Shown here one piece after another: positions 27,983 through 43,755 of a stretch of DNA of 64,000 nt. Each line of letters starts with the position of its first letter. Positions within the stretch are counted from its first letter, which is position 1. Both the position numbers and the translations under genes were made by a program. The notes beneath the pieces were generated by a model. It made no database searches. It saw only the letters and a list, made by a program, of their open reading frames with translations, and was not told where the DNA came from. Source of the DNA: Pseudoalteromonas marina (lineage in GTDB: Bacteria > Pseudomonadota > Gammaproteobacteria > Enterobacterales > Alteromonadaceae); NCBI RefSeq assembly GCF_000238335.3, contig NZ_AHCB03000005.1:62001-126000 (forward strand). The letters are read 5' to 3'.

Positions 27983-29350
27983 ATGACTGCATCTTCACTT
28001 AATTCACGAGAAAAGCGCGCCGCTGTATCGCTAGCGAGTGTGTTTGCATTTAGAATGCTCGGCTTATTTATGCTGATGCCGGTATTAGCGATTTATGGCC
28101 AGTCGCTTGACGGTTTTTCACCTATTTGGATTGGCTTTGCTATTGGTGCGTATGGCCTAACGCAGGCTGTGTTGCAAATACCTATGGGCCGTTTGTCAGA
28201 CAAAATAGGCCGTAAAAAAGTTATTATTGGTGGCTTAGTTGTGTTTGCTATTGGCTCAGTCATAGCCGCATTAGCTGAATCTATCCAAATGGTAACTGTG
28301 GGGCGTGCCTTACAAGGCATGGGCGCTATTGCTAGTGCTTTGCTTGCATTTGCCAGCGACTTAAGCCGAGACGAACAGCGACCCAAAGTAATGGCGGTTA
28401 TAGGTATGAGCATAGGCATGAGCTTTGCTTTTGCTATGTTATTAGGGCCTATTGTTGCCGCGTCGTGGGGTGTTGCTGGCGTTTTTTGGCTAACAGCAAT
28501 ACTTGCGGTATGTGGTATTTTTATTATTACGTTTTTAGTGCCCAAAGCGGTTAATAAAGCCCCCAAAGGCGACACGCTTGCAAGCTTTAGCGATATTAAA
28601 AAACTGATTAAACACCCGCAGTTAGCACGCTTAAATGCCGGTGTATTACTGTTGCATTTAACATTAACAACCATTTTTGTTGTGTTACCCAGCCAGCTAA
28701 TAAAAGAAGGCCTAGCGGCAGAACAACATTGGTATTTGTATATTCCAGTCTTGCTTTTAGCATTTCTATTAATGGTGCCCATTATGATTGTGGCCATAAA
28801 AAAAGAAAAAGAAAAGCAAGCATTTATAAGTTCTGTAGCGCTGTTAACAGTCAGCATGCTTGCCATGTCAGTATGGATTAATAGTGTGGTAGGAATTGCA
28901 ATATGTATGTTGCTTTATTTTGTTGCGTTTAACTTTTTAGAAGCAACAATGCCCGCGCTTGTATCGCGCTTAGCGCCTGCTAGCCAAAAAGGGTCAGCCA
29001 TGGGCGGGTACTCGTCTAGCCAGTTTTTAGGGGCTTTTTTAGGTGGTATTTTAGGTGGTTACGTAGCACAAACAATAAGTACGCAAGCTGTGTTTGCGGC
29101 AGCGGCACTTGTTGGGTTAATATGGCTTGTTGTTGCGTGGAAAATGGAAGTACCACCCAAAAGTAAAGTTATTAGTTTAATGACCAAATTAAGTACTGAG
29201 GAGCATGCCCAAACACTGGCTTCTCAGTTAGTTGCTTTACCCGGTGTAATAGAAGCAACAGTAGTACGCGACGAAAGCCGTAGCTACTTAAAGATTAATG
29301 ATAAAGAATTTGACCTAGACCAAGCGCGAAAAGTCGCTGGTTTAATCTAA
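27983..29350 (+). CDS. yajR: YajR-type MFS transporter
   Basis: 455 residues with 12 predicted membrane helices and the MFS motif [13 protein letters not shown] (about 72). The C-terminal cytoplasmic domain (about 392-455, [27 protein letters not shown]) matches the ferredoxin-like YAM domain of E. coli YajR (454 residues), which sets it apart from simple drug exporters. Position between uvrA and ssb is conserved in Vibrionales and Alteromonadales. The substrate is unknown. Confidence 0.85.
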
Positions 29351-29370
29351 CGTTTATAGGAGATGGTTTC

Positions 29371-30072
29371 ATGGCACGCGGTGTGAACAAAGTAATTTTG
29401 GTTGGTAATTTAGGGCAAGATCCTGAAGTTCGTTACATGCCTAACGGTAACGGTGTAGCAAATATTACCTTAGCAACTTCAGACAGCTATAAAGATAAAA
29501 ACACTGGCCAAATGGTTGATAAAACTGAATGGCACCGTGTTGTATTTTTTGGGAAACTGGCTGAAATTGTGGGCGAATATTGTCGTAAAGGTTCACAAAT
29601 ATACGTAGAAGGTAAACTTCAAACACGTAAATGGACTGATCAACAAGGCCAAGAAAAATATACCACAGAAATCGTTGTTGATGGCTTTACAGGTCAAATG
29701 CAAATGCTAGGTGCTCGCGGTGGAGACCAGCAAAGTGGTGGCGGTTACCAAGGCAATCAAGGTGGCCAGCAAAACAGTGGTTATCAAGGTAATCAAGGTA
29801 ATCAACAAGGCGGTTATTCACAAAATAATCAAAACCAGCAAGGTAGTTATGCACCACAGCAGCAAGCTGCACCTGCTGCACAGCCTCAATCGGCGCCTGC
29901 ACCACAGCAAAATAACCAGTATCAGCCACAAGGCGGTGGTTTTGCTCCACAGCAAAATAGTGCACCACAGCAGCAAGGTGGTTTTGCACCTAAGCCTCAA
30001 AATGCACCACAAGGCGGCGCATCAAATCCAATGGAACCAACAATAGATTTTGACGACGACATTCCGTTTTGA
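29371..30072 (+). CDS. ssb: Single-stranded DNA-binding protein
   Basis: 233 residues, longer than E. coli SSB (178). OB-fold residues 1-110 begin [26 protein letters not shown] (start of the conserved core). A long Gly/Gln/Asn-rich linker (about 115-218) has repeated GYQGNQG-type and APQQ-type units. The acidic tip DFDDDIPF recruits repair and replication partners. The ATG has AGGAG upstream. No terminator follows directly: a genomic island starts within a few bases of the stop codon, and the likely native terminator is now at 43576-43599. Confidence 0.97.
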
Positions 30073-30075
30073 CTT

Positions 30076-30173
30076 TTACTTAAGACATGTTTTTGTAAAG
30101 TATCACTCTATAGCCCTTTAATAGCGTAATACTTAAAAGAGAGTTTACATTAAAGTAGTATTTTTTTGTAAAC
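30076..30173. promoter_or_regulatory. Candidate left attachment / recombinase-binding region
   Basis: Holds TTACTTAAG (30076-30084), TATCACT (30101-30107), direct repeats of TTTTTGTAAA (30090-30099 and 30163-30172) and the inverted pair GTTTAC (30143-30148)/GTAAAC (30168-30173). The same words TTACTTAAG...TATCACT and TGTAAA...TTTACA recur near the right end (43378-43401; 43492-43506). Such clustering is usual where tyrosine recombinases bind, but the motifs are AT-rich and could partly be chance. Confidence 0.4.
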
Positions 30174-30234
30174 TTTTTTTATACTCTATTTAAAGGTTTA
30201 CGCTTACTTAGAATTGTGTAAGGTATGGAGCGTT

Positions 30235-31539
30235 ATGAAAACAAAATTATTTGTTGGTAAAACAGGTGAAAGATATTCAATTCTTTTGAATGATGAGGGT
30301 ATGCCACTTGAACATCCGAATCTATTTGTCACCACGATTTATAGAAACGATGGACAAGCAGCTTCTTCATGTCAAAAAGCGTTAGAGCATATTTCTTTTT
30401 TTTTAGAGATGTGTAACGGTTTAGAAATTGATGTTGAAACAAGAACCGCTAAAGCGGAGTTTCTCACTCATGAAGAAATACAGAGGATTGTCTATTTCGC
30501 AGGGATCACTCGTGAAGCAACGAAAGCAAAACTTAAAGCAACAAACAAAAATGTTGTAAAGCTTAAAGTGGCGAAGCCTAGGATGTTGGAAACAGCTAGG
30601 TATTCAATCGTTGCAGAAAAAAAAGAAGACAAGGTCCATTGGCAAACCAAGTACAACCGAATCAGTGTTTTCTCACGTTACGTTAGTTGGCTTGAAAAAT
30701 ATCATCACCCCTATACAGAGACGAGGACTGAATTTTACTTCACTGAACTACGACCTCAAAAAAATGAGGGACCAACCTATGGAGAGATGCTTGAAGCCGC
30801 TACCTACAAGTCATTAACCGCTGATGAAATCGCAATTTTCCTTGACCGTATTCGCCCGGAGTATTCTGATAACCCTTGGAATGACGAAAGTATTAAGGTT
30901 CGCAACTATGCAATGTGTATGTTTATGTGGGCACTGGGTGTGCGACTAGGCGAATGTCTCAACGTGAAGATTCAAGACCTGATCTTTAAAAAAGAAAAAC
31001 GATACGTTGTGATCAGGCGCAATGCTGATGACATTAATGACTCGCGTGCCAACCAACCAAGGGTTAAAACCAATGGAAGGAGCCTAGCATTGTCACCAAA
31101 GCTCCAAAAGATCCTTGATTATTACATCAACGAACATAGAGCAAACTTACAGAATGTTGCTACCAATGAATTTTTGTTTGTTTCTCATCGTGTACGGAAA
31201 GGTAAATTAAACCCCTTATCGATAAGTGCAGCCGAAAAAATATTCGCACAACTAAGCGAGACATTGGGCTTTCATGTACATCCACACCGCCTCCGCCATA
31301 CTTGGAACGACCGTTTCAGTGAAGCAATGGATAAAGCGATCGCCGCAGGGACAACAAATGAAGATAAATCAGAGGCTGACCGCTGCCAACTCATGGGCTG
31401 GCGACAAGGTTCGTCAATGTCACTTGTGTACGCCTCGCGACACAACGCAAAGCGAGCTATGACGCTTGCGCTGAATATGCAAGATGCTGACTTCGCAATG
31501 AAGGAAAGTATTGAGTATGACGAAGATCTGCCTTTTTAG
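30235..31539 (+). CDS. ginA: Tyrosine recombinase GinA-like, first of trio
   Basis: About 434 residues. ATG 30235 is preceded by GGAG; a longer in-frame start at 30214 lacks one. The C-terminal catalytic domain has the Arg of GVRLGECLNV (about 241), HPHRLRHTW (about 351, H-x-x-R), GWRQG at the third His/Trp position (about 385), and the Tyr nucleophile in MSLVYASR (about 394). So the R-H-R-(H/W)-Y set is complete. It is the leading gene of a four-gene block with ginB, ginC and ginD, as in GInt islands. Tn554 and RIT elements also use recombinase trios, but the extra fourth gene and the sizes favour GInt. Confidence 0.82.
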   Translation: MKTKLFVGKTGERYSILLNDEGMPLEHPNLFVTTIYRNDGQAASSCQKALEHISFFLEMCNGLEIDVETRTAKAEFLTHEEIQRIVYFAGITREATKAKLKATNKNVVKLKVAKPRMLETARYSIVAEKKEDKVHWQTKYNRISVFSRYVSWLEKYHHPYTETRTEFYFTELRPQKNEGPTYGEMLEAATYKSLTADEIAIFLDRIRPEYSDNPWNDESIKVRNYAMCMFMWALGVRLGECLNVKIQDLIFKKEKRYVVIRRNADDINDSRANQPRVKTNGRSLALSPKLQKILDYYINEHRANLQNVATNEFLFVSHRVRKGKLNPLSISAAEKIFAQLSETLGFHVHPHRLRHTWNDRFSEAMDKAIAAGTTNEDKSEADRCQLMGWRQGSSMSLVYASRHNAKRAMTLALNMQDADFAMKESIEYDEDLPF

Positions 31540-31557
31540 AGCAGTATGGAGAGCACT

Positions 31558-33132
31558 ATGAATAAACAACATGAAAGTTACGCTAATGCTGACACTAGCC
31601 AGTATTTCAAAAGTGATTCAGACAATAGAATTCAAATTTCGTCTGCTGGTTTCGAGTTTGATACTAGTGATCGCAAGTGGGTGCTGGATTCAGAGACTAA
31701 TGCATATGTTGGCTTCGTTGGATCATACCCTCAAGAATATCAAGAAAGCATCATTAAAACGCTGGCACACTTTGCAATAACTTGTTCCGCTAAGTATGTC
31801 ACCCAGCATATAAGTGAATTGAAGCGTTTTTTGAAGCATGAAAAGGGCTTTACGTTAGCAGGTTTAATGGCATACAAGATGTTGACTCCTAAAGGCTCCA
31901 GAGAGCAAAGCATCTCCGTTTTACGTACTTTTTTGCGAAAAATGGTTTATTTGGATTTTTATGTGCCCGATGAATTTATGAAAGAATTCAACACTTGGAT
32001 ATTGAAAGGGCGTGAGAAAGGGGTGCCAGTATCAAGTCAAGACCCAGTAGAGGGACCATATAGCGAATTAGAGTTTAGAGCAATCCAAGCAGCGTTGGAC
32101 TTTAAATATGCTGACCACACAATTACTGATAGAGAGTATTCGATTGTAAAGTTGTTTTTAGCAACATTTAGAAGACCGGCAAACTTAAAGCAACTAAAAG
32201 TGAAGGATCTCATAGCCAACTCAAATATCCTGGTCACAAAGCAGACAATCTTTAAACTTAACATACCTCGCTCAAAGGGCGGGGGAAGTAAATTTCGCCA
32301 GCAGTCAAAAGCATTTGTGCTAGTTGAAAGTATTGGTTTAGTACTAACTAGACATATCCAAAGTTCGATTAAAGAGGCTGAAGCCAAGTTAGGTCGAAAA
32401 TTCAGTGAGGAAGAGGCGAAAGAGTTGCCGATGTTTTCTAACCACAGGTTGATAAATGACCTGCGCAATCAAAATGCTAATAACGTAATCGATTATCTAA
32501 AAACTGAAATCCCGCACTTGACGACATATGAATTAACAAGAGAATTGCAAGCGATAGTTGATAAACTTGAGGTCATATCTGAGCGTACCGGCAAGCCTTT
32601 GAAAACTACCGCATATCGCTTCCGATACACTGGTGGCACAAGAGCGGCGGAGGCGAAGGCCGGTGCTGTAACTATTGCGGAACTCTTAGATCACTCAGAT
32701 ACCGAGCATGTTGGAGTATACGTTGCTAATTCACCTGAGTTAGGCCAGCAAATATCAAGCATTATGAATAATCCGTTGGCTCGCTATGCAAGTGCATTCA
32801 GAGGCGAGATTGTTAAAGATGAGGAAGATGCCTTTAAGGTTAATCCTGATGCTACTCGTATTCCCTGTGCCGATAAAGGGTGTGATGTCGGTAGTTGTGG
32901 TTCAAGAAGCGTTTGTACCGACTATGCCCCTATAGCTTGTTATCTCTGCCCTAAATTTCTACCTTGGAAAGATGCGCCACATAATGAAGTGCTTCAATGG
33001 TTGCTTGAAGAACGCAATAGGTTATCCGAAACACTTAATGACGCAAAAGTAGTGCAAATTAATGACAGCGCCATCTTGGCTGTTGCGCAAGTAATGAAAG
33101 CTTGTGAAGAGGAGAAAAAGAAAGATGTCTGA
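31558..33132 (+). CDS. ginB: Tyrosine recombinase GinB-like, second of trio, atypical active site
   Basis: About 524 residues. I use ATG 31558, which has GGAG upstream. The integrase fold is recognisable: box-I Arg in TFRRPANLKQLKV (about 203), TAYRFRYTGGTRAAEA (about 350) in place of the usual H-x-L-R-H-T, then LLDHSDTEHVGVYVANSP with the third His and the Tyr nucleophile (about 391). Both histidines around the second catalytic Arg are Tyr. A Cys-rich tail (CADKGCDVGSCGSRSVC, then CYLCPKF, about 440-470) looks like a zinc module. It overlaps ginC by 8 bases, so the two are co-translated. Probably needed with GinA and GinC for recombination. Confidence 0.8.
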   Translation: MNKQHESYANADTSQYFKSDSDNRIQISSAGFEFDTSDRKWVLDSETNAYVGFVGSYPQEYQESIIKTLAHFAITCSAKYVTQHISELKRFLKHEKGFTLAGLMAYKMLTPKGSREQSISVLRTFLRKMVYLDFYVPDEFMKEFNTWILKGREKGVPVSSQDPVEGPYSELEFRAIQAALDFKYADHTITDREYSIVKLFLATFRRPANLKQLKVKDLIANSNILVTKQTIFKLNIPRSKGGGSKFRQQSKAFVLVESIGLVLTRHIQSSIKEAEAKLGRKFSEEEAKELPMFSNHRLINDLRNQNANNVIDYLKTEIPHLTTYELTRELQAIVDKLEVISERTGKPLKTTAYRFRYTGGTRAAEAKAGAVTIAELLDHSDTEHVGVYVANSPELGQQISSIMNNPLARYASAFRGEIVKDEEDAFKVNPDATRIPCADKGCDVGSCGSRSVCTDYAPIACYLCPKFLPWKDAPHNEVLQWLLEERNRLSETLNDAKVVQINDSAILAVAQVMKACEEEKKKDV

Positions 33133-35386
33133 TATCAACATATTACTATTCACCCCTAAGCATGAGATTGAGCTTGAGAAGAATGTTGAAGACTTCATCA
33201 GCGAAGTTGAAGACACACCAAACCCAAATGCTAAAATGGATTACAGTTCTCATTACTGGGAAGGTCTCGGTAACTTCACTAAAATGGGTGTCAATAGTCG
33301 CAAAAAAGATAAATCTACTCGGCTTGATGACTCAATCATCAGGTTTGCAAAGGCTTACATAAAATATCAAGCGATAAAACGTGGAACATCGATTTATGCG
33401 CATTTCTATGCAATAAGAGCATTGGAAGCAGCAGTCTTAAAGCGTGGTGAACAAGTCGTAATTTCTAAATTACTTCCCCTAGATTTCGATCAGGCAGCAC
33501 AAGAAGCAAAAGCAAACATGAAGGAGGGCGCTGCATATCAAGCGGGAATGAAGTTAAACTTCATGCGCAAATTTTTAATTGATCACAAAATGATAAAGCC
33601 TTTTGAGTGGAAAAATCCCTTTTCTAAACCAAAAGACAAAAAAGACCTTACGGGCGACGTTGGCCAAGAGTACCGAGAGAGCAAAATGCCTGACGAAAAC
33701 TCGATAATGGCGATGGCATCAATCTTCGCTAAAAAAGACTCAGAGCTTACCTCAAGGGATATATTCACATCATCTACATTTAGCTTGATGATGTGCGCTC
33801 CAGAAAGAGGTTCAGAGCCCCTTTATCTTAAGTCTGATTGTCTTGATGTCCATATTATTAAAAATCCGCAGAGTGACGCTGAGCGCGATTCTGAAAAGGC
33901 ATTAAAGCAAGGTGATGGATCAGAGCTTTTGTTGGCCGAAAATGACGAAGAGCAACCTGTTGAAGAGCAAATAGGCATACGATGGTTTTCAGGAAAAGGC
34001 TATGGCTACGAAAACAAATGGGTGCCAGATGTTATGAACCCTGTTATTAAAGCGGCCATAAAGAGGTTGAAGAAGCAGTCAAAACAAGCAAGAGAGTTCG
34101 CAAAAATGCTTGAAGAGTCGGATGACTTTCCTCGTCATCCTCTTTGTCCAAGAGTCGATGAAGACAAGTTACTTACTAAAGCACAAGCAGTCGCTGCACT
34201 TGGCCTGGACACATCTCTACTAACTCAGAAACAAGCGAGAACATCTGGCAATCAGCTCCTTACTAAAGTTGGTATAGAAAGAGCTGACTATGTAGTTTCA
34301 TTAAGAGACCTAAATAAAATTGTGAGGGCAAGGCTACCAGTAGGATGGCCGTACATACCATTTAAGAAAGGAAAGGTTAAACTCAAATGGTCAGACGCAC
34401 TCTATGCGGGTTTTGCTAACCAATTCAGTGTATCTAAAGGCACTATATACACGGAGCTTTGGATACCCAATATTACGACTTTAAATGAGGATCTAAAGCC
34501 ATCCATAAAAAAAAACCGATCAACGGATAAAATCGCTGATGGTAATCTTTCAGTATTCGCTCGCCATGGATACAATGGATTGGAGTTAAGAAGTCATCAA
34601 CCTCGACATCTGCTTGATACCTTGGCATCTGTTAACGGTATGAGCGATACCTTAAGGTCTAAATGGGCGGGTAGAGCTGACCCAAAACATAATCGCTATT
34701 ACGACCATACGGATGAACAAGAGTACAATCATGATTGGCTAGAGCACGAGTCTAAAGATGAATTGGTAAATAATGACGTTAGAAGCCTGTTTAAAATCCA
34801 AATAGCGAAAGGCAATATGCGTTCTCTGCAAGAGCATAATACTCGTGCAAGCCTTGCTGTTCACATCACTGAATACGGTGAATGCAAACATTCATATATC
34901 GATGAACCGTGCATGAAGCATCGAGATTGCTTAAATTGTAATGAGCTAGTTTGTACTAAAGGGAATGAGGATAGGCTTAAGCGGATTCAAGAAAAGCTAA
35001 AGAAGGAAAGATTATTGCTGCGTGGTGACGAAAAAGCAGTTAATGATGGAGTGAAAGGTGCAGAGCAGTGGTATCAACGTAGGTTAACCACTATAAAGCG
35101 TTGCGAGAGCCTCATAGCATGGTTAACAAGCGATGATGTTAAAGATGGCGACATGATCAAGCTAGCTGACGCTGAGAACGTGACACATTTAGACAGAGCA
35201 TTAGAGGCTAACGGCCGCAAAAGACTACCTAAGATTGAGAATCACCTCCGTAAAGACAAAATTGCTGATAATCCAGCCCCAGTAGAATTTGTTTCTATAA
35301 ATCAGCTACTAGCACCAACCGGCATCGTTGTGCCAAATGACGATGATGACTTAAACTATAACGACTTTGTCTTGGAGGATTTTTAA
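33125..35386 (+). CDS. ginC: Tyrosine recombinase GinC-like, third of trio
   Basis: About 753 residues from ATG 33125, with GAGGAG about 10 bases upstream. The catalytic region has Arg in CAPERGSEPLYL (about 230), SHQPRHLLDT (about 490, H-x-x-R-H), WAGRADPKHNRYYDH with the Tyr nucleophile (about 520), and a downstream Cys cluster CMKHRDCLNCNELVCTKG (about 600), typical of the large member of these trios. A C-terminal helical part follows (about 620-753). The third catalytic position is Arg (AGRAD) rather than His. It is followed by ginD after 2 bases. Confidence 0.82.
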   Translation: MSDINILLFTPKHEIELEKNVEDFISEVEDTPNPNAKMDYSSHYWEGLGNFTKMGVNSRKKDKSTRLDDSIIRFAKAYIKYQAIKRGTSIYAHFYAIRALEAAVLKRGEQVVISKLLPLDFDQAAQEAKANMKEGAAYQAGMKLNFMRKFLIDHKMIKPFEWKNPFSKPKDKKDLTGDVGQEYRESKMPDENSIMAMASIFAKKDSELTSRDIFTSSTFSLMMCAPERGSEPLYLKSDCLDVHIIKNPQSDAERDSEKALKQGDGSELLLAENDEEQPVEEQIGIRWFSGKGYGYENKWVPDVMNPVIKAAIKRLKKQSKQAREFAKMLEESDDFPRHPLCPRVDEDKLLTKAQAVAALGLDTSLLTQKQARTSGNQLLTKVGIERADYVVSLRDLNKIVRARLPVGWPYIPFKKGKVKLKWSDALYAGFANQFSVSKGTIYTELWIPNITTLNEDLKPSIKKNRSTDKIADGNLSVFARHGYNGLELRSHQPRHLLDTLASVNGMSDTLRSKWAGRADPKHNRYYDHTDEQEYNHDWLEHESKDELVNNDVRSLFKIQIAKGNMRSLQEHNTRASLAVHITEYGECKHSYIDEPCMKHRDCLNCNELVCTKGNEDRLKRIQEKLKKERLLLRGDEKAVNDGVKGAEQWYQRRLTTIKRCESLIAWLTSDDVKDGDMIKLADAENVTHLDRALEANGRKRLPKIENHLRKDKIADNPAPVEFVSINQLLAPTGIVVPNDDDDLNYNDFVLEDF

Positions 35387-35388
35387 TT

Positions 35389-35787
35389 ATGGCAAAGCAT
35401 TTAACTGACAGTGATATAGAGGCGATTGTTGAATACCTTGACGAGTGGGATCTCAGTAAGAAAGTGACTTGGGAAAGGCTTTGCATTGCTCTGGATGATG
35501 ATTTAGGTATCAGCCACACTCGGCAGACATTGCAAAGTCATGATCGTATAAAAGGCGCATTTGACGATTTAAAACTCCACCTCAGAGGTAAAAAGAAACG
35601 AGGAGGCAAAGTGTTACCCAGTTCTTTAGCCGCCGCAGCAAAAGAGATTGAAACACTAAATCGAAAGAATGCTCGGTTAGAACGGGAAAATAAAAACTTG
35701 CTGGAACAGTTTCTCGTTTGGCAATACAACGCTCATATTCACGGAATGAAGCAAGATCAACTTAATCGGCCGCTCCCAGAAAAATAG
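35389..35787 (+). CDS. ginD: GinD-like small coiled-coil accessory protein
   Basis: 132 residues, within the known GinD size range. The N-terminal half (about 1-70) is compact and helical with ISHTRQTLQSHDRIKGAF, suggestive of a helix-turn-helix. A basic patch KKKRGGK follows, then a coiled coil (about 80-108, IETLNRKNARLERENKNLLEQF). The same design is seen in TnpC of Tn554-like trios. GinD is required for GInt recombination; by inference it binds the ends or bridges the recombinases. Starts 2 bases after ginC. Confidence 0.78.
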   Translation: MAKHLTDSDIEAIVEYLDEWDLSKKVTWERLCIALDDDLGISHTRQTLQSHDRIKGAFDDLKLHLRGKKKRGGKVLPSSLAAAAKEIETLNRKNARLERENKNLLEQFLVWQYNAHIHGMKQDQLNRPLPEK

Positions 35788-35805
35788 ACTGGCAGCGGTT
35801 TTTTC
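35770..35805 (+). terminator. Terminator of ginABCD
   Basis: Stem CCGCTCCCAG/CTGGCAGCGG (one mismatch) followed by TTTTTT. The left arm lies inside the last codons of ginD. It closes the recombinase operon and separates it from the cargo. Confidence 0.85.
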
Positions 35806-35911
35806 TTTTTATTCCATCTCTAATTAGTTTCATGACGATATCTAGTTCTCCTCGTTTAATTAAAGACAAAGTGGTATGCCCTTTCGCAAAATATTTTCAT
35901 AGCAACTAATA

Positions 35912-36035
35912 AAGAAAATAAAACGGTCGTTTTCTTTACGATTCTATTGCATCATATATACGTTATAAATCACCTTGCTTTTGTGTAAAACAACTCGTAA
36001 AGTAATCTATGTAAATTAAACGTACGTTTATAACG
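35912..36035. promoter_or_regulatory. Dyad-rich region upstream of the serine recombinase, possible res site
   Basis: Contains AAGAAAA (35912-35918)/TTTTCTT (35930-35936), AAAACGGTCGTTTT (35920-35933), CGTTATAAA (35961-35969)/TTTATAACG (36027-36035), and the 14-bp palindrome TAAACGTACGTTTA (36017-36030). Serine resolvases bind paired dyads just upstream of their own gene, so this may be both recombination site and operator. Confidence 0.45.
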
Positions 36036-36043
36036 AGGTTGTT

Positions 36044-36628
36044 GTGAAATTTGGATATGCAAGAGTTAGCACAGATGAACAGTCTGATAATGCTCAATTA
36101 GATGCACTAAACGATGCTGGGTGTGAGCGCATATTTAGCGAGAAGTTTAGTGGTAAGTCAAAACAACGGCCTGAACTAGAGCGTATGATCGATTCACTGA
36201 GAAGTGGCGATATTGTTGTGGTGCAGCGTCTCGACCGACTCGGGCGTAGTCTAAAAGATCTGATTGAGTTGTTAGATGGCTTTAAATCGCAGCAGGTTAG
36301 CTTTATTAGCCTCAATGAGAATATCGACACCACAACTGCGGTTGGTGAGTTAGCGTTCCATATGATTGGTTCTATCGCACAATTTGAACGTCGCTTAATT
36401 TCGGAAAGAACCAAAGCTGGTTTAGATGCAGCGCGAGCCAGAGGGCGAAAAGGTGGGCGACGCGTTAAGTTAAAACCTTCGGATATAAAAAAAGCACAAG
36501 CAATGCTGCTTGACCCTACCGTCACAAAAAGCGAAGTGGCAGAGCATTTCGGTGTAAGCCGGCCAACACTAAATAAATCATTGAGCACAGCACCTCCGCC
36601 ACAAGAACGATCACTATTTGAAAAGTGA
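36044..36628 (+). CDS. Serine recombinase of the resolvase/invertase family
   Basis: 194 residues. KFGYARVSTDEQSDNAQLDAL carries the nucleophile Ser9 in the N-terminal catalytic domain. RLDRLGRSLKDLIEL (about 65) and ERRLISERTKAGLDAARARGRKGGR (about 120, E helix, in two blocks) follow. A C-terminal helix-turn-helix (about 160-185, TKSEVAEHFGVSRPTLNKSL) binds the site. The start is GTG with GAGG upstream. The size fits Tn3-type TnpR or Hin/Pin invertases. No Tn3 transposase is present, so the target could be its own upstream dyads (multimer resolution) or an invertible segment, which I do not see. Confidence 0.88.
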   Translation: MKFGYARVSTDEQSDNAQLDALNDAGCERIFSEKFSGKSKQRPELERMIDSLRSGDIVVVQRLDRLGRSLKDLIELLDGFKSQQVSFISLNENIDTTTAVGELAFHMIGSIAQFERRLISERTKAGLDAARARGRKGGRRVKLKPSDIKKAQAMLLDPTVTKSEVAEHFGVSRPTLNKSLSTAPPPQERSLFEK

Positions 36629-36770
36629 GCTGAACAACTCTTAAGCAGTGAAGTTTTAGGGTAAAGTCGCTTAGCTTCATAAATTAATAGCAATTGCTTG
36701 GATTAATGACATAGATTAAGGTTCTATTCAAAAAACAGGACTAGGTTTAACTTTCCCCAACGTCCTCTTC

Positions 36771-36818
36771 ATGCCCTGAAGCATTCGCCTAAACACGATT
36801 TGGGGCAGAAATGAGTTA
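36771..36818 (-). repeat. Recombination-site-like motif, copy 1 (minus strand)
   Basis: Read on the minus strand it runs TAACTC-N5-TGCCCCAAA, then GTTTAGGCGAATGCTT. It aligns over about 45 bases with copies at 39447 and 41366 (consensus TGCCCCAAA, 5-9 bases, TTWANGYRAATG). Inverted relative to the other two copies. Confidence 0.55.
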
Positions 36819-36852
36819 CTACTGATAGCACTAAGCCGAACTTCGGCAAAGA

Positions 36853-38082
36853 GCTGTGAGTTCAACTGGTGAATGCAACGCTATCCTTATTATTAGTTAA
36901 AGGAGCGTTTACATGAAACAGAGAAAGCGTATTTATTATAATGCAGAACAAAGAAGGTTAATTTGGGATCGATATCAGCGCGGTGATAGTGCGCATGATA
37001 TAGCAAGGCTATTTGATCGATACCATTCATCTATATTAGGTATTATCCATAAAACAGGTGGTGTTCGGCCGCTTGAGCCCAAACGCTCACCAACAACACT
37101 AACTCTTGCAGAGCGAGAAGACATTTCACGAGGGTTAGCAGCAAGTAAGTCACTTCGAGAAATAGCGAGATACCTTAATCGCTCACCTTCCACTATTTGC
37201 CGTGAAGTAAACCGCCACGGCGGGATTAAAAAATATCGAGCGAGTAAAGCTGACAAAGTTGCCTGGGAAAATGCCAAACGCCCTAAGCCTTGTAAGCTGT
37301 ATGGCAACAAAGAATTATGTTTAATCATTGCTCAAAAGATGGAATCTGCATGGTCACCTCAGCAAATCTCTGGTTGGCTTAGGCGGAGATACCCCAATAA
37401 TGAGGATTTGAATGTGTCGCACGAAACAATATATAAAACCCTATATATACAAACCCGCGGCGCCTTAAAAAAAGAGCTACAAAAACACTTAAGGACGCAG
37501 CGGGTAGTCAGGAAATCAAAACACGCCACTCTTAAAGGTAAAGGGTTAGGAAAGATAGTTGACGCTGTACCAATTAGTGAAAGGCCATCAAATGTTGAAG
37601 ACAGAGCTGTTCCAGGCCACTGGGAGGGAGACTTGATCCAAGGCTCAGGAAACAGTTTTATCGCGACTCTAGTTGAGCGGCACTCTAGGTATGTAATGTT
37701 AGTGAAAGTACCTAGTAATAAAACAAAGCCAGTAATCGAAGCGTTGATTAAACAAGCTAATAAGTTGCCAGCAGAGCTTTATAAATCATTAACTTGGGAC
37801 AGAGGATGTGAGCTTACAAATCATAAAGACTTTACTCTAGCTACAGATATTCAAGTATATTTCTGCGATCCACAATCACCTTGGCAACGCGGCTCCAATG
37901 AAAATACAAATAGGTTATTAAGACAATATTTTCCAAAAGGAACTAACTTAAATGAGCATTCTCAGATAAGATTAAACCAAGTTGCCAGACAACTTAATGA
38001 GAGACCGCGGAAAACACTAGAATACGAAACACCTGCGGAGCGATTTAATCAGTGTGTTGCATCGAGTGGTTGAACTCACAGC
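36853..38082 (+). mobile_element. Complete IS30-family insertion sequence
   Basis: 1230 bp. The terminal inverted repeats are about 27 bp: left GCTGTGAGTTCAAC (36853-36866) with ATGCAAC further in, and the exact complement at the right (GTTGAACTCACAGC, 38069-38082). The element is flanked by the 2-bp target duplication GA (36851-36852 and 38083-38084), normal for IS30. It contains one intact transposase, so it may be active. It sits in the non-coding gap between the serine recombinase and the epimerase. Confidence 0.9.
36913..38073 (+). CDS. IS30-family transposase
   Basis: 386 residues. The N-terminal half has helix-turn-helix segments (RDSA-type GDSAHDIARLFDRYHSSI, and ARYLNRSPSTICREVNRHGG about 90). 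The C-terminal DDE domain has GHWEGDLIQGSGN (first Asp, about 239), LTWDRGCELTNH (second Asp, about 298) and SPWQRGSNENTNRLLRQYFP (Glu, about 330), the IS30 signature. GGAG precedes the ATG. The last codons overlap the right inverted repeat. Intact. Confidence 0.95.
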   Translation: MKQRKRIYYNAEQRRLIWDRYQRGDSAHDIARLFDRYHSSILGIIHKTGGVRPLEPKRSPTTLTLAEREDISRGLAASKSLREIARYLNRSPSTICREVNRHGGIKKYRASKADKVAWENAKRPKPCKLYGNKELCLIIAQKMESAWSPQQISGWLRRRYPNNEDLNVSHETIYKTLYIQTRGALKKELQKHLRTQRVVRKSKHATLKGKGLGKIVDAVPISERPSNVEDRAVPGHWEGDLIQGSGNSFIATLVERHSRYVMLVKVPSNKTKPVIEALIKQANKLPAELYKSLTWDRGCELTNHKDFTLATDIQVYFCDPQSPWQRGSNENTNRLLRQYFPKGTNLNEHSQIRLNQVARQLNERPRKTLEYETPAERFNQCVASSG

Positions 38083-38115
38083 GAAAACCAGTCATTGCGA
38101 TTGACTAAATATAAT

Positions 38116-38308
38116 AGCTAACAGATTGGTCAATGTTGTTTGCTCATTAATTGGAGGAAATGAGCGGCGCGCGTATATTGTTTCATTTAACTTTACATAA
38201 AAACTTTAGAAAACTTAGTAATATCTTAGGTAATTTGTTAAAACTATGTAGAGATGAGCTAGCAATAGCAAATAAATACGCTATTTGCACACTATTAAAT
38301 TGTTAGCT
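38116..38308. repeat. Inverted repeat bounding an AT-rich non-coding segment
   Basis: AGCTAACA (38116-38123) pairs with TGTTAGCT (38301-38308), extendable to 12 bp with two mismatches. The arms resemble the outer boxes of an integron attC site (RYYYAAC/GTTRRRY), but 193 bp is long for one and no second box pair is clear. An inner hairpin GCAAATA/TATTTGC lies near 38269-38289. The segment holds no gene and ends 33 bases before the epimerase start. Confidence 0.3.
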
Positions 38309-38341
38309 GCTTTGAGGTAAATCATTAAGAAGGTGCTGTAA

Positions 38342-39223
38342 ATGAGAATATTGGTAACAGGCTCTGCGGGTAGAGTAGGGCGTGCGATCTATATTAAATT
38401 AATGCGAACACATAACGTAGTCGGTATTGATAAAACACCTTGTTCAACAGCCGATTACATTGGTGATATTCGTGATAGTGCTCTGATTGATGGGGTTCTT
38501 GAAAATATTGATGTCATCATTCATACAGCGGCTCTTCATGCTCCTCATGTTGGTTTAGTGCCTGATTCTGAGTTTAAATCTATCAACGTAGACGCGACTG
38601 AGAAACTGGCTTTGTCTGGCTTAAAAGCAGGTATTAAGCACTTTGTTTTTACCAGTACAACTGCGTTGTACGGTTATGCTTCGACTCCGAAAGGTATTTC
38701 AGGTTGGATTAATGAGGAGGTTACTCCGCAACCTAAGTCGATTTACCATAAAAGTAAAATTGATGCTGAAACTAAGCTAAAAGAAATTTCAAACCTGTTT
38801 CAGCTTCCAGTGACTGTGCTGCAAATGTCGAGATGTTTTCCTGAGGCTGCGGATTTAATGGCGGTATTTCGTCTGACTCGTGGTATTGATGCTCGAGATG
38901 TAGCAAGTGCTCATTTATGTGCTGTGGAAAAACGTTTAAACGGTTTTAATCGTTTTATAATTTCAGGTACAACACCTTTTCATCTTTCTGATTGCGAAGC
39001 TTTATATACTGAAGCTGGATCTGTCATCAAGCGTAAGTGCCCAGAAATCGCGCTAGCATTTAAACAAAGAAATTGGGAATTACCTCAATGCTTAGATCGC
39101 GTATATGATTCATCGTCCGCACGTGAGAAATTAGGTTGGTCACCTATACATGATTTTGAAAGCGTTTTGGAAATGTTAGATTCTGAAACAGCAGAAGTAT
39201 TGCCAATTTTAAAACGAAGCTAA
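38342..39223 (+). CDS. NAD-dependent epimerase/dehydratase (extended SDR)
   Basis: 293 residues. MRILVTGSAGRVGRAI gives the TGxxGxxG nucleotide-binding loop (6-13). DIRD (about 42) and HTAALHAPHVG (about 61) follow. Ser-Thr of FTSTTALYG (about 103) and YHKSK (about 140) supply the S/T-Y-K catalytic set. The C-terminal part (about 175-290) binds substrate; EKLGWSPIHDFE is the usual closing motif. It acts on a sugar nucleotide or related alcohol, but the substrate cannot be told. It stands alone as island cargo with no other sugar genes. Confidence 0.85.
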   Translation: MRILVTGSAGRVGRAIYIKLMRTHNVVGIDKTPCSTADYIGDIRDSALIDGVLENIDVIIHTAALHAPHVGLVPDSEFKSINVDATEKLALSGLKAGIKHFVFTSTTALYGYASTPKGISGWINEEVTPQPKSIYHKSKIDAETKLKEISNLFQLPVTVLQMSRCFPEAADLMAVFRLTRGIDARDVASAHLCAVEKRLNGFNRFIISGTTPFHLSDCEALYTEAGSVIKRKCPEIALAFKQRNWELPQCLDRVYDSSSAREKLGWSPIHDFESVLEMLDSETAEVLPILKRS

Positions 39224-39264
39224 ACGCGGTAAGTCGGGCTGTTTCTAGTAAACTCATCATTTTT

Positions 39265-39353
39265 GTCGGATGGCGTGGCTTCGCCACTTATCCGACCTAC
39301 CCCGTACAGTAACGTCAAAAGGTAGGTTGGTTAAGCCGAAGGCGTCACCCAAC
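39265..39353. repeat. Two REP-like palindromes downstream of the epimerase
   Basis: Hairpin 1 (39265-39296): GTCGGAT...ATCCGAC around an inner GTGGC-TTC-GCCAC. Hairpin 2 (39326-39353): GTTGG...CCAAC around AGCC-GAA-GGC. The two are joined by inverted CCTACC/GGTAGG. The words resemble the REP/BIME-type repeats common after genes in gammaproteobacteria. They may act as terminator or mRNA stabiliser for the epimerase. The 363-bp gap (39224-39586) otherwise holds only motif copy 2. Confidence 0.6.
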
Positions 39354-39446
39354 AGAGTTACAGATTCACACCTTGAAGGTCCGCAACTGGCACAGAGCTG
39401 TCCCTTCGTCTTTAACGAGTTTTTGTCCATAGGTGAGTTATTAACA

Positions 39447-39493
39447 TAACTCGCCTTTGCCCCAAAATGCGTTAACGTAAATGCTCTAAAACC
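39447..39493 (+). repeat. Recombination-site-like motif, copy 2
   Basis: TAACTCGCCTTTGCCCCAAA followed by ATGC, GTTAACGTAAATGCTCTA. It is preceded by a hairpin GAGTTA/TAACTC (39435-39452) and by TAACGAGTTTTTGTCC (39413-39428), which is echoed at 42633-42648. Direct repeat of copy 3. Confidence 0.55.
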
Positions 39494-39586
39494 AACAGCA
39501 GAAATAAACCTTTGGGTTGCTCTGTAGAATTCATATCTCATTTACGATAGATTGAAACGCCATTATTTCAGATTAAGGACGATGTT

Positions 39587-41125
39587 GTGGAGATACCTGT
39601 CGAATATTTACTGATTTGCATTTTATGTTTATCTGTTTCAACTTTAGTTTGTTTAGTAGTCCTTAGGGGACGTAAGCGAAGAATAAAAAATCTACAGGAC
39701 GAACAAAAAGATTCGCAAGACAATTATATTAAAGCCAACGAAAAGTATATCGAATACAAAGGACTGTATGATCAGCTCAATAGTGAACATAGAATCCTTA
39801 ATAATGAGCATCAAAACCTCCGCCAGCAATACTTACCTATTCTTGACATTAATAATGCAGTTTCAGAGGCGCAGTCAGAACTAGAATCATTAAATCAGCA
39901 AACTCGAGAGCAAAGAGAAAAATTTGAGTTCGATCGCAAAACTTTAACAAGGCAGCAAAACGAAAAAACGGCTGAACTAAGTCGTGAGTACGCAAGTAAA
40001 AAAGTTTATTTAGATAAATTGTTGCAACAAGTTGCGATATATGACGAAGCCATAGAACTAGCGGAGCTGGGATTCTATAAACCCCATTTTTCGTTTGACA
40101 CGTCAGAACGATATAAAAAAGAGATTGAAAAAATAAGAGCTATGCAGAAACAAATGCTAGCCGATAAACGGGCTGTTGCATGTCACACTGAATGGGTAGT
40201 TGAAGGTAGCAAGACCAAAGGTAAAACCATGACTAACCGAAACATAAAGCTAACAACAAAAGCGTTCAATAACGAATGTGATGCGGCGTTGGCTAATGTT
40301 AGTTGGAATAATGTAACTCGGATGGAGTCCCGCATAACTAAGGCATTTATGTCTATTAACAAGCTTAATGAAACCAACAATACCCTTATCAGCAACGAGT
40401 ATTTAGAACTTAAACTCAATGAATTGAGACTAACTCACGAATATAAAGACAAAAGACAGCAAGAGAAAGAAGAACAGGCAGAGATTAAACGCCAAATGCG
40501 TGAAGAGGCAAGGCTCAAGCAAGAAGCGGAGAAAGCTCAGAAGGAAGAAGAAAATTACCAGAAATTACTCAACAAAGCACTAAGGAGTGCGGAAAAAGCA
40601 ACGGGAGACAAGCTTGATAGCCTCAATAACGAAATTGCTCGCCTTAAAAATGATCTTGAAAATGCACATAATTTGTCTGAACGCGCAAAGTCAATGGCAG
40701 AGCAAACTAAACAAGGTCACGTTTACGTTATTTCAAACATAGGCTCATTTGGTAAAGGTGTATACAAGATCGGAATGACAAGGCGTTTGGAACCCCTTGA
40801 TAGGGTAAGAGAATTAGGTGATGCCAGCGTACCATTCTTATTTGATGTTCACGCGATGATCTTTTCCAAAGATGCACCAGGTCTTGAAAAAGAACTACAC
40901 AGGTTGTTTGATGATAAACGAGTAAACCTTGTTAATTATCGCAAAGAATTTTTTGAAGTAACTTTACCAGAGATCCAGAGTGCAGTTAGTAGAATATGCG
41001 ATGACGCAGAATTTATTGAAACCGCCGAAGCCCGAGAGTATAGAGAGTCGGAAGCAATACGCGCTCAACGTAAAGATGATAAAGAGTCCGTTACAGTGAT
41101 AAATGAGCTACCAGAAACTATATAA
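39587..41125 (+). CDS. Membrane-anchored DUF4041 / GIY-YIG nuclease-like protein
   Basis: 512 residues from a GTG start with AAGGA upstream. An N-terminal membrane helix (about 4-26) is followed by coiled coil (about 35-150). A DUF4041-like region (about 160-260) contains GFYKPHFSFDTSERYK, and KTMTNRNIKLTTKAFNNECD. A second, charged coiled coil (about 285-370) leads to a C-terminal GIY-YIG domain of the T5orf172/MUG113 type: HVYVISN (about 377), GVYKIGMTRR (about 388) and a Glu in EKELHRLFDD (about 438). Proteins with this layout sit in phage and island accessory regions; a role in anti-phage defence or DNA processing is plausible but not shown. The GIY-YIG core looks intact. Confidence 0.78.
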   Translation: MEIPVEYLLICILCLSVSTLVCLVVLRGRKRRIKNLQDEQKDSQDNYIKANEKYIEYKGLYDQLNSEHRILNNEHQNLRQQYLPILDINNAVSEAQSELESLNQQTREQREKFEFDRKTLTRQQNEKTAELSREYASKKVYLDKLLQQVAIYDEAIELAELGFYKPHFSFDTSERYKKEIEKIRAMQKQMLADKRAVACHTEWVVEGSKTKGKTMTNRNIKLTTKAFNNECDAALANVSWNNVTRMESRITKAFMSINKLNETNNTLISNEYLELKLNELRLTHEYKDKRQQEKEEQAEIKRQMREEARLKQEAEKAQKEEENYQKLLNKALRSAEKATGDKLDSLNNEIARLKNDLENAHNLSERAKSMAEQTKQGHVYVISNIGSFGKGVYKIGMTRRLEPLDRVRELGDASVPFLFDVHAMIFSKDAPGLEKELHRLFDDKRVNLVNYRKEFFEVTLPEIQSAVSRICDDAEFIETAEAREYRESEAIRAQRKDDKESVTVINELPETI

Positions 41126-41215
41126 TTTTTGAAGGTTCAAACACGCGTCTGCCCAAACTTTAGCTGCCAAAACTAGCTGACTATTCTTATAGTGACTTTT
41201 TAGAAGGAGGTCACT

Positions 41216-41344
41216 ATGAAACCACATTTAAATTATAATGTGACTGGCGTGAAACGTCCTTTCAAACTTGAAGAAATCTGGCGTATTCGCACTCGAATTG
41301 AAATTGAAGATGCAATTAAGATATCCAGAGAAACGGATTGTTAA
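41216..41344 (+). pseudogene. Remnant of a small tyrosine integrase with in-frame internal deletion
   Basis: A 42-codon frame with a strong AAGGAGG ribosome-binding site encodes MKPHLNYNVTGVKRPFKLEE, IWRIRTRIEIED and AIKISRETDC. The first 26 or so residues match my memory of the N-terminus of a widespread integrase family of about 200 residues (VTGVKRPFKLEEIW). The last 15 match its C-terminus (G-IE-DALEISE-T). The catalytic middle of about 170 residues is missing, and the frame is kept. It cannot be an active recombinase. Motif copy 3 begins 22 bases after its stop codon. Confidence 0.6.
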
Positions 41345-41365
41345 TTTAATATAGGCAGCAACCCC

Positions 41366-41412
41366 AAGCTGCCTTTGCCCCAAAAAATTATTTAACGTGA
41401 ATGTTTTAGAGG
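41366..41412 (+). repeat. Recombination-site-like motif, copy 3
   Basis: CTGCCTTTGCCCCAAAA, then TTTAACGTGAATGTTTTA. Like copy 2 it follows a hairpin (GGCAGC/GCTGCC, 41354-41373). Copies 2 and 3 are direct repeats bracketing the GIY-YIG gene and the integrase remnant. The rest of the gap to 41561 holds nothing I can identify. Confidence 0.55.
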
Positions 41413-41561
41413 TCGGCTTTGAGCGATCAGCTAGAATATTATTCATCTAATGATATTGGCTCTACTCCATAAATCTGATATTCCACTAACTTTTAAGTCA
41501 TCACTAATATAAAAACTGTATAAATACACAGTTTAATTGATGTACTCCTATATTCAAGAAA

Positions 41562-42608
41562 ATGAGCGACGAGCACACTTTCTTTTTTCTAGATCTCTTT
41601 AGCGTCAATAAAAATATTAAAGTTGGCAATGCATTACGTTATTTGTTAAAAATAGATCTATTAATACATAAGCGTGACATTGGCAGAAAGATGAGTGGCG
41701 CGCTCACTATGAAATTGTCATGTGCCAAGGAGTCTAGGTTGAAACGATACAAAGTCATTCGTTTTCAGTTTGATGGAAGAGCAGCTGTTCTCAATCAAAA
41801 AATATCGGACGATTGGGAAACGAGCGTCAAGGACAATTGGCTCGATAATAAGCGAAAAATTAAAGAGGAAATCATTGCTGAATTTGGTGCAATAAATTGC
41901 TTTCGAAAGATTCAGGACTTTTCAGATATAGACTCAGATCAACCATCTTTAATAGCGTTTCATAACCAGTTTATGAAACAGATTGCTAATGCCTACTCTT
42001 TCGGGGCTTATTATCCTGCACTCACTGGTGCGTCTTCTTTAGGAGAAAGGATACTAAATCACTTGGTTCTGAAACTAAGAGAATATTTCAAAGCTACTCC
42101 TGAATACCAAAAAGTGTACAGAAAGAATTCTTTTGATAACTGGGATTTAGCTATCAATACTTTGGAATCATGGGATGTCTTACTACCTGAAGCAGTCGCG
42201 ACCTTTAGAGAGTTAAAAACTGTTAGAAATCACTCTATTCATTTTAATCCTGAAACGGATGAAAATTACAAAGAGACCGCTTTAAATAGTATTTTGTTGT
42301 TAAAAAAAATCATAAGACAGCAGTTTTCGGGTTTTGGAGCCCAGCCGTGGTACATTGCCGGCACTATGGGGGCTTGTTACGTAAGAGAGTCATTTGAAGA
42401 CGTACCATTTGTCAAAGAAGTAGTATTACCTAATTGCGTAAAGGTTGGTCATCTTCATTCTGTTGAAAGGGTCGGACATCAATTTCAAATAATAGATGAG
42501 GAAAATTATGCAGATATCAGTGTTACAGATGAGCGTTTTAAAGAGTTGGTTAACAATGCCAGCAAATATGATAAAAACAATTTATTAATAGGTGGAGACG
42601 GCACATAA
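41562..42608 (+). CDS. Uncharacterised protein with HEPN-like RNHSIH motif
   Basis: 348 residues, no signal peptide or membrane span. A helical central region (about 130-265) includes ASSLGERILNHLVLKLREYF, and FRELKTVRNHSIHF (about 215-228), where R-N-x3-H fits the R-x4-6-H signature of HEPN RNase domains. HEPN proteins are frequent in toxin-antitoxin and abortive-infection systems. The N-terminal 120 residues and the C-terminal beta-rich part are unrecognised. No ribosome-binding site is obvious before the ATG (TCAAGAAA only). A defence role is inference from the motif and the island setting. I see no antitoxin or nucleotidyltransferase partner adjacent. Confidence 0.6.
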   Translation: MSDEHTFFFLDLFSVNKNIKVGNALRYLLKIDLLIHKRDIGRKMSGALTMKLSCAKESRLKRYKVIRFQFDGRAAVLNQKISDDWETSVKDNWLDNKRKIKEEIIAEFGAINCFRKIQDFSDIDSDQPSLIAFHNQFMKQIANAYSFGAYYPALTGASSLGERILNHLVLKLREYFKATPEYQKVYRKNSFDNWDLAINTLESWDVLLPEAVATFRELKTVRNHSIHFNPETDENYKETALNSILLLKKIIRQQFSGFGAQPWYIAGTMGACYVRESFEDVPFVKEVVLPNCVKVGHLHSVERVGHQFQIIDEENYADISVTDERFKELVNNASKYDKNNLLIGGDGT

Positions 42609-42807
42609 CAAAACGCTGTCGAATAAATACTCTAACGTGCTTTTGTCCAAAAACGAGTTTACTCGACCGTCTGCTTCTCGCTCATAGCTGCATGTCAGAT
42701 AAAGTCCAAACATATTCATCGAAACTTCTAGATCAGATATGAGCTACTACAATTTATTTGAACTTGCTATCTAAGCTATGACTTCACTTTAATATTCCAA
42801 ACCAATC

Positions 42808-43222
42808 AAGGCTTCACTCTGATCACGAACAAGGCTTCATCTCAGTATTCAACCGTATTAAGGCTTCATACTGATCGCAAACAAGGCTTTATTTCAGTAT
42901 TCAACGGATTAAGGCTTCATCCTGATCGCAAACAAGGCTTTATTTCAGTATTCAACCGGATTAAGGCTTCATCCTGATCGCAAACAAGGCTTTATTTCAG
43001 TATTCAACCGGATTAAGGCTTCATCCTGATCGCAAACAAGGCTTTATTTCAGTATTCAACCGGATTAAGGCTTCATCCTGATCGCAAACAAGGCTTTATT
43101 TCAGTATTCAACCGGATTAAGGCTTCATCCTGATCGCAAGCAAGGCTTCATTACAGTATTTAACCGGATTAAGGCTTTATCCTGATCGCAAACAAGGCTT
43201 CATTACAGTATTTGACTACATT
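42808..43222. repeat. Array of eight 52-bp tandem repeats, non-coding
   Basis: Unit starts (AAGGCTTCAT) are at 42808, 42860, 42911, 42963, 43015, 43067, 43119 and 43171. Spacing is 52 bp except one of 51. Units 3 to 6 are nearly identical, while the first and last are degenerate, as in an expanding array. Each unit has two AAGGCTTYA words (23 and 29 bp apart) and one GATC site in the same place. The length is not a multiple of 3, so a repeated peptide is excluded. It lies in the island's right-hand non-coding region; 42609-42807 before it holds no gene, only a TAACGTGCTTTTGTCC word (42633-42648) like that at 39413. Confidence 0.92.
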
Positions 43223-43567
43223 AATCCCAAGATACTCTGTGTGTTTTGTTATTTATGTATTGCTTGTACCTTTGATTAACTTTTACTAACGGACCGTGGT
43301 GATGGTGATAAAACAAGTATTAAGCGCCCCCTAATGAAGATGAACTTTTCTGAAAAGGTAATTTCAATAATAAGTGCTTACTTAAGGTGGTATATATCAC
43401 TGTTTAGATGTCATAAAAATTACAAAAAACATTACACTTATCTTTATTTTTAGGTTGATATTTAATCTATCGCCATATATAATATGGTCAATGTAAATTC
43501 TTTACAAAAATAAATTTACTCTCAAGTAAAAGAAACCGTTTTAACCAAAGAAAGAATGTTGAAATAA
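43223..43567. other. Right end of the island, no gene seen
   Basis: AT-rich, no frame of note. It holds TTACTTAAG (43378-43386), TATCACT (43395-43401) and the perfect dyad TGTAAA-TTC-TTTACA (43492-43506), which echo words at the left end behind ssb. The junction between island and chromosome should be in this stretch. Confidence 0.5.
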
Positions 43568-43575
43568 ATTATAGA

Positions 43576-43599
43576 AAGCCGCTATTAAGCGGCTTTTTT
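43576..43599 (+). terminator. Hairpin terminator, probably the original ssb terminator
   Basis: Stem AAGCCGCT/AGCGGCTT, 4-base loop, T-run. No gene ends just before it on the plus strand: the closest upstream gene end is 42608, about 970 bases away. If the island is removed it falls shortly behind ssb, as expected for that gene. Confidence 0.75.
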
Positions 43600-43755
43600 A
43601 TGTCTTTCACTCCATCAATGTTAGCCAATTTTCTCGTGTTGCTAATAATGGTAATTAGCTTAAGTACTGTTTTATATTTAAAGTTAATTGGCTACCTTGT
43701 GCTTATGGCTTTTTTGAACAACACTTTAGTGACTAATATTACGTGTGGGTGAGTT

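Follow-up and report, generated by a model that had tools for sequence, protein, structure and literature searches.

The DNA behind ssb in Pseudoalteromonas marina raises two questions: what kind of element has settled there, and why does its first gene code for a recombinase whose last residues resemble the tip of the host SSB? The locus lies in a stretch of 64,000 nt (the window; assembly GCF_000238335.3, contig NZ_AHCB03000005.1, positions 62,001–126,000, forward strand), in which an accessory block of about 13.5 kb separates ssb from csrD. Coordinates are window positions unless a locus is named, and the labels G and L denote genomes of relatives and fetched loci, respectively. The block is very probably a GInt, with the borders listed below and the 3' end of ssb as its target. 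To a wider reading we assign a probability of about 0.35: several GInt lineages may independently have gained a working SSB-tip mimic on GinA that recruits PriA, RecG, RecO, ExoI and others, and may use the ssb of conjugative plasmids as a transfer vehicle.

Borders and gin operon of the island

29371..30072, +, ssb, host gene and target; open reading frame with product end DFDDDIPF
30064..30069, +, attL spacer CCGTTT, on the codons for Pro-Phe at the SSB tip; rightward of it the DNA is taken to be island
30070..30086, +, left terminal motif TGACTTTTACTTAAGAC, matching the right-end motif in inverted orientation
30235..31539, +, ginA, tyrosine recombinase of 434 aa with C-terminal YDEDLPF (open reading frame and domain match)
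31519..31539, +, codons and TAG stop of the SSB-tip-like GinA end DEDLPF (sequence)
31546..33132, +, ginB, NF041502 site-specific integrase of 528 aa (494.6 bits)
33104..35386, +, ginC, 760 aa, tyrosine-recombinase fold predicted from a model
35389..35787, +, ginD, small accessory protein of 132 aa, whose homologues come after ginC in relatives
43213..43535, no strand, AT-rich right end
43519..43535, +, right terminal motif CTCTCAAGTAAAAGAAA, inverted partner of the left motif
43536..43541, +, attR spacer CCGTTT, second copy of the repeat
43573..43598, +, displaced native ssb terminator (terminator prediction; alignment to the DNA behind ssb in G015 and G032)

The ginABCD operon (30235–35787) begins 162 bases past ssb. 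Its four reading frames are all open and all on the + strand at one end of the block, with overlaps or few-base gaps between neighbours, and they code for three tyrosine-recombinase-type products and one small protein, as in GInts generally. The borders agree with this assignment. Imperfect direct repeats, CCGTTTTGAC and CCGTTTTAAC, match the 10–17 nt repeats of GInts, and the window contains the string CCGTTTTRAC at two positions, 30064 and 43536, 13,472 bp apart (0.26 occurrences expected; at least two in 3 of 100 shuffles). Just inside the spacers sit the two terminal motifs, inverted and equal at 13 of 17 positions, and the right end has a GC content of 28.2% over 43213–43535 against 39.6% for the window, corresponding to the short AT-rich 3' end of GInts. 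A promoter-like site at 43455–43483 (11/12) in this right end is directed outwards to csrD; promoter-like sites are not enriched regionally (28 vs 36.4 expected).

The island is absent from the same place in relatives. In G015, ssb leads straight into the DNA found right of the window attR (82% over 73 columns), and in G032 the DNA behind ssb matches this right flank at 73% over 64 columns, both matches including the terminator; a shorter match in G030 runs over 40 columns and leaves the terminator outside. In the window, the ssb terminator now lies 13.5 kb from its gene. The stop codon of ssb also varies among the sites compared: it is TGA in the window, whereas the stop behind CCGTTT is TAA at the window attR and in G030, and TGA in G015. 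A TGA-bearing left end identical in kind lies behind ssb of Gilvimarinus (L065), where homology starts at 30064, the first base of the query island stretch. Because the window ssb and the Gilvimarinus left end share TGA while attR and G030 have TAA, the stop codon of ssb was most likely brought by the island itself.

These features suggest how the island would have entered. GinA and GinB, together with GinC and GinD, would recombine the joined ends of a circular island with the CCGTTT in the last two ssb codons, in the manner that the available text of Bardaji et al. (2017; PMC5385486) suggests for GInts. The Pro-Phe needed by SSB would be retained and a new stop codon supplied by the island. 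As ssb is separated from its terminator, and terminator prediction finds no terminator-like site between ssb and ginA, ssb transcripts could run into ginABCD.

The sequence-only reading had described four contiguous, co-oriented gin genes in the block between ssb and csrD, which we confirm. It had also taken the block for a mobile GInt with the 3' flank of ssb as target, and this reading is supported by the gene order, the att-like repeats, the inverted ends, the relatives without the island and the related operons behind ssb elsewhere. The comparison of the ssb–csrD interval that it had proposed found relatives without gin genes directly behind ssb and does not refute the reading.

Surveys of other genomes show how widely related operons occur. 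They are present in 12 of 108 genomes of the genus (NF041502, >60 bits) and 31 of 394 of the order (E 1e-20), the genome under study being included in both, and in 34 of 296 Vibrionaceae, the family of G710 (E 1e-15). From these and other loci, with L115, L146 and L147 left out, we assembled 75 operons, excluding those that lacked a parsed GinA or a parsed GinB (L122) and keeping near-identical ones. In 30 of the 75, including L060, which was placed by hand, ssb lies at most 2.5 kb upstream of ginA; in one (L111) it lies 5.4 kb upstream, 39 do not have it upstream in this way and five are at contig edges. One non-ssb site is a cut umuC (L113, 2546–2947), and a near relative of that operon, L163, has a GinA ending YDNDIDF. 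In L017, L020 and L016, where no gin operon is in view, the DNA right behind ssb resembles by eye the left ends of GInts (L159, L112, L109); these flanks are possibly scars or decayed islands.

The C-terminal end of GinA

The window GinA ends in YDEDLPF and the host SSB in FDDDIPF. With three acidic residues, an aliphatic residue, Pro and a C-terminal Phe, the GinA end DEDLPF has the composition of the SSB tip (SSB-Ct), which many homologues do not attain. We counted tails by a strict pattern (an aromatic residue, three acidic residues or Asn, an aliphatic residue or Phe, any residue, a hydrophobic residue) and a relaxed one, both devised after the tails had been seen. By manual count, the strict tail is present in 25 of 45 homologues of the window GinA and in 12 of a remote GinA set (n=22), 7 more of which have it with one or two departures. 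In the remote clade (22 sequences) average identity is 48% over the last seven residues, compared with 11–24% for the three preceding heptads and 62% for the whole protein; the contrast is weaker in the window clade (34 sequences), at 51% for the last heptad, 33–48% before it and 52% overall. The strict pattern occurs in 52 of 1,474 unique open reading frames of at least 150 aa from the window and the fetched loci, a set enriched for ssb and gin loci; by manual reading these are 43 SSBs, eight GinAs and one TIR-like protein. None of 80 GinBs, 76 GinCs or 73 GinDs has it. The SSB tip comes after a disordered linker; in a structure model of GinA, helix is predicted up to residue 425 and the last nine residues are coil, with a mean pLDDT of 54 in the last block.

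The tail appears in more than one part of the GinA tree (77 rows, fifteen near-identical or cut GinAs excluded). A single clade uniting the two main groups of tailed GinAs is rejected by an AU test (p 1.6e-7), on a quick tree with long branches and with groups chosen after an earlier tree had been seen. Elsewhere in the tree, other tails occur in the umuC-sited lineage (L163), in L173, L178 and L185, and in partial form (MEDIPW) in L112, which is at ssb. GinAs of a remote lineage (L173, L176, L178, L185) end YDEDIPFDLFD or similar, so that a short stretch containing LF or IF comes after the SSB-like motif.

Two ways of extending the tail argument were rejected. As evidence of enrichment, genome-wide searches fail: the tail DNA pattern gave four hits in 108 genus genomes, three of them GinA ends and one off any gene end, against eight for the reversed control, and a stricter pattern gave one hit (a DUF4062 protein) and one control hit in 197 Vibrionaceae genomes. 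The pattern is thus not enriched as such, and the weight of the genus-wide search lies only in three of its four hits being GinA ends. A strict tie between tail and ssb insertion was likewise rejected. Of 31 operons sited at ssb (L111 included), 6 have the strict tail, against 1 of 44 at other sites or contig edges (Fisher p 0.018); for the relaxed tail the figures are 8 of 31 vs 5 of 44 (p 0.13), all in rows that are not phylogenetically independent.

As to function, we tentatively propose that the GinA tail might dock host SSB-partner proteins of repair or replication restart during strand exchange. A competing explanation, which concerns the tail only and to which we give even odds, holds that YDEDLPF serves to dock GinB, GinC or GinD within the recombinase complex and resembles SSB by chance. 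Tyrosine recombinases usually exchange their C-terminal ends between subunits, and the ends themselves vary in ways that suit such a role: Phe is the last residue in only 10 of 34 sequences of the window clade and 9 of 22 of the remote clade, D is commoner than P in the penultimate position of one clade, in L173, L178 and L185 another four or five residues come after the motif, and the tails of two near relatives, L151 and L153, are degenerate. According to the available text of PMC10164576, SSB-Ct binding depends on the terminal Phe and weakens when the Pro is changed. What this explanation accounts for less well is that, GinA aside, the strict motif in the fetched loci belongs almost only to SSB, that it recurs in the two lineages separated by the AU test, and that SSB-like ends are found on two defence-type proteins. 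The latter, a DUF4062 protein (L195, 1501–2466, − strand) and a TIR-like protein near a gin operon (L184, 1204–1881, − strand), hint at use of the SSB tip by defence-type proteins. Should GinA indeed mimic the SSB tip, an integrase with such a peptide would form an unusual direct link from site-specific recombination to the host SSB hub. Our searches of open-licence PMC literature, partly with broad queries, found no SSB-tip mimic on a recombinase of a mobile element.

Plasmid ssb as a probable target

The proposed target consists of codons of a gene that is nearly universal and is present on many large plasmids too, and GInts of this class could therefore sit in chromosomal and plasmid ssb alike. 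A GinB search of 72,556 plasmid records at E 1e-20 gave matches in 60, and 33 of the matching plasmids are predicted to be conjugative. In 10 of 15 gin-bearing plasmid records opened, which were hand-picked and not random, ssb lies directly upstream of ginA. It is not upstream of ginA in the annotated records of Bosea and Pseudomonas CIP-10, tblastn found no ssb in the fetched stretch of the unannotated Acinetobacter and Azospirillum plasmids, and the Pasteurella record starts too close to ginB to judge.

When the ssb end, the junction and ginA of an IncF plasmid are used together as a query, 435 of 5,426 E. coli genomes give a match, which in 370 of them spans at least 80% of the query; there are 380 chromosomal and 91 plasmid places, counts that take in short matches, some of just the first 86 query bases. 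Such 86-base matches on E. coli plasmids may likewise be scars or decayed islands. Among the matches listed (40 of 456 records), chromosomal ssb1 and plasmid ssb both have copies that are 99–100% identical. These identical island ends at both kinds of ssb make spread by way of plasmid ssb somewhat more probable than not, and islands of the ssb class would then travel by conjugation. No such route for GInts was found in the literature searched. If ssb is a target common to chromosomes and conjugative plasmids, it would offer a simple transfer route and would help explain the spread of defence genes, PD-Lambda-1 and Avs4 among them.

A number of observations weigh against the readings given here of the island, its tail and the plasmid route. 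Besides the scarcity of the C-terminal Phe and the degenerate tails of L151 and L153, 23 of 30 ssb-sited GinAs are tailless by both patterns, and similar motifs also occur at non-ssb sites. In the ten plasmid islands, GinA lacks the tail by both patterns, and the tail and plasmid points are consequently separate. On the plasmid side, the hand-picking of the records and the short E. coli matches count here as well, and five of the ten ssb-positive plasmids carry one E. coli/Salmonella island, with the same left end and GinA end; one of the five, AP026530, may hold chromosomal DNA, since uvrA adjoins its ssb. The island itself is a single copy, and there is no twin genome with an exact empty site, the flanks compared being 73–82% alike. 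That transcription reads through from ssb into ginA is deduced from the absence of a terminator-like site, and excision, a circle and transfer are predictions for this island.

Mobility, cargo and known systems

Between the gin operon and the right end lie the following features.

36044..36628, +, serine resolvase, with DNA relatives in the G025 (74%) and G103 (75%) loci
36853..38082, +, IS30-family element, transposase 36913–38073, 27-nt inverted ends, 81%
38342..39223, +, NAD-dependent epimerase/dehydratase, cargo (domain match)
39587..41125, +, PD-Lambda-1 anti-phage family protein (DUF4041 and T5orf172), cargo (596.9 bits)
41562..42608, +, cargo protein of 348 aa without family (open reading frame)
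42808..43212, +, tandem array, 52-bp unit, 7.8 copies, within the island and probably no GInt part

The block could also be an old, immobile one, the ssb–csrD gap being a general hotspot in which a gin operon merely sits. The ssb DNA search gave a match in 55 of 60 genomes, the genome under study included. By manual count, 14 of the 29 ssb loci from the same genus have a csrD-like match that starts within 1.5 kb (some such matches are just 21–33% identical, and the weakest could be other EAL proteins), two have ginA next, and 13, one of them at a contig edge, have neither. Since the gap measures several kb in seven genomes with no gin match in the fetched stretch (G008, G010, G015, G021, G030, G019, G029), the interval is variable in general, and the IS30 element within the cargo also fits an ageing block. 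We nevertheless consider immobility improbable: none of the four gin reading frames is interrupted, each end has the spacer and an inverted motif, and in Gilvimarinus, another genus, the DNA of the left end and of the gin genes next to ssb is 83–88% alike, which argues for recent movement of an ssb-sited GInt family. In Gilvimarinus gilvus (L065, 10001–15746), ginBCD is inverted relative to ginA, with break points at about 31526/31551 in window terms, reflecting an inversion or a misassembly.

The remaining alternative, that the element is a strand-biased circularizing element (SE), a RIT or a Tn554 element, shares a similar plan with the island (several tyrosine recombinases and a small helper, terminal inverted motifs, a 6-bp spacer) and, judged from published descriptions, is very unlikely, as the SE order intA-tfp-intB-srap is not that of the island genes, in which the third protein is the largest and the second (GinB) falls in NF041502, and as Tn554 lacks an equivalent of the large third protein.

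The 348-aa cargo protein has no match in Pfam, NCBIfam, PADLOC or PHROG at the limits used. A perfect LexA-like box, CTGTATAAATACACAG, lies at 41516–41531, 30 bp upstream of its gene; such boxes are not enriched window-wide. SOS coupling through ssb is unsupported, as a search of the DNA from uvrA to the MFS gene that precedes ssb found no CTGTN8ACAG site (at most one mismatch); one 1-mismatch LexA-like site lies inside the MFS gene, at 28649. The 52-bp array unit consists of about two 26-bp units with AAGGCTTYAT in common, and an Rfam scan of 29000–45000 at the gathering threshold found nothing. The array occurs in 2 of 108 genus genomes, including the one under study, and in a draw of 295 from the family only in the latter. 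The second array (G123, another Pseudoalteromonas; L192, 7275–7706, 8 copies, about 86% identical) lies directly behind tnsA-, tniB-, tniQ- and tnsD-like genes. With this counterpart adjoining a Tn7-like operon, we rejected the array as a GInt-specific end structure; a Tn7-like end or regulatory array is one possibility.

The sequence-only reading had thought the combination of an ssb-proximal site, nuclease-like cargo and a tandem array unreported. The array, not being specific to GInts, drops out of that combination. Novelty of the site falls because the available text of PMC5385486 reports the end of ssb as a preferred target, with six of eleven analysed GInts in ssb. The nuclease-like cargo matches PD-Lambda-1, and defence cargo is not new: the available text of PMC10121019 describes E. 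coli GInts (Tn6571-family/GInt defence islands) with defence cargo at chromosomal hotspots. The island is accordingly of a known kind, with its ssb target and GInt defence cargo already in print, and what was not found in the literature searched is the GinA tail and the use of plasmid ssb, neither of which the sequence-only reading mentions. In the available text of PMC5385486, "tail" does not occur, the "ssb" passages deal with the insertion site, and transfer of GInts between cells was attempted but could not be shown; "ssb" does not occur in that of PMC10121019.

Compared with known systems, as the available texts describe them, the island is most like the GInts of PMC5385486, with ginABCD at one end, cargo, an AT-rich other end, imperfect direct repeats, the 6-nt stagger proposed there and insertion at the end of ssb with the product unchanged; its cargo is unlike theirs. 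GinC differs from the published accounts: residues R235, H498xxR501H502 and Y533, their role assigned by eye, are invariant across 39 aligned GinCs (GinC and GinD homologues were collected by tblastn and phmmer), whereas PMC5385486 reports the first Arg to be absent from GinC and PMC10214605 describes GinC without a catalytic motif. Like the islands of PMC10121019, it is a GInt with a defence gene, here in Pseudoalteromonas and with PD-Lambda-1. With the SE elements of Idola et al. (2023; PMC10214605) it shares inverted end motifs around a 6-bp spacer and the lack of mobilization genes; gene order and core proteins are different, and SE and GInt proteins cluster apart in that work. Finally, GinA YDEDLPF and SSB FDDDIPF have in common the SSB-Ct features of PMC10164576 (an aromatic residue, three acidic residues, an aliphatic residue, Pro and a C-terminal Phe), but unlike SSB-Ct proper the GinA motif is borne by a recombinase, and other GinAs often end in PM, DM or DF.

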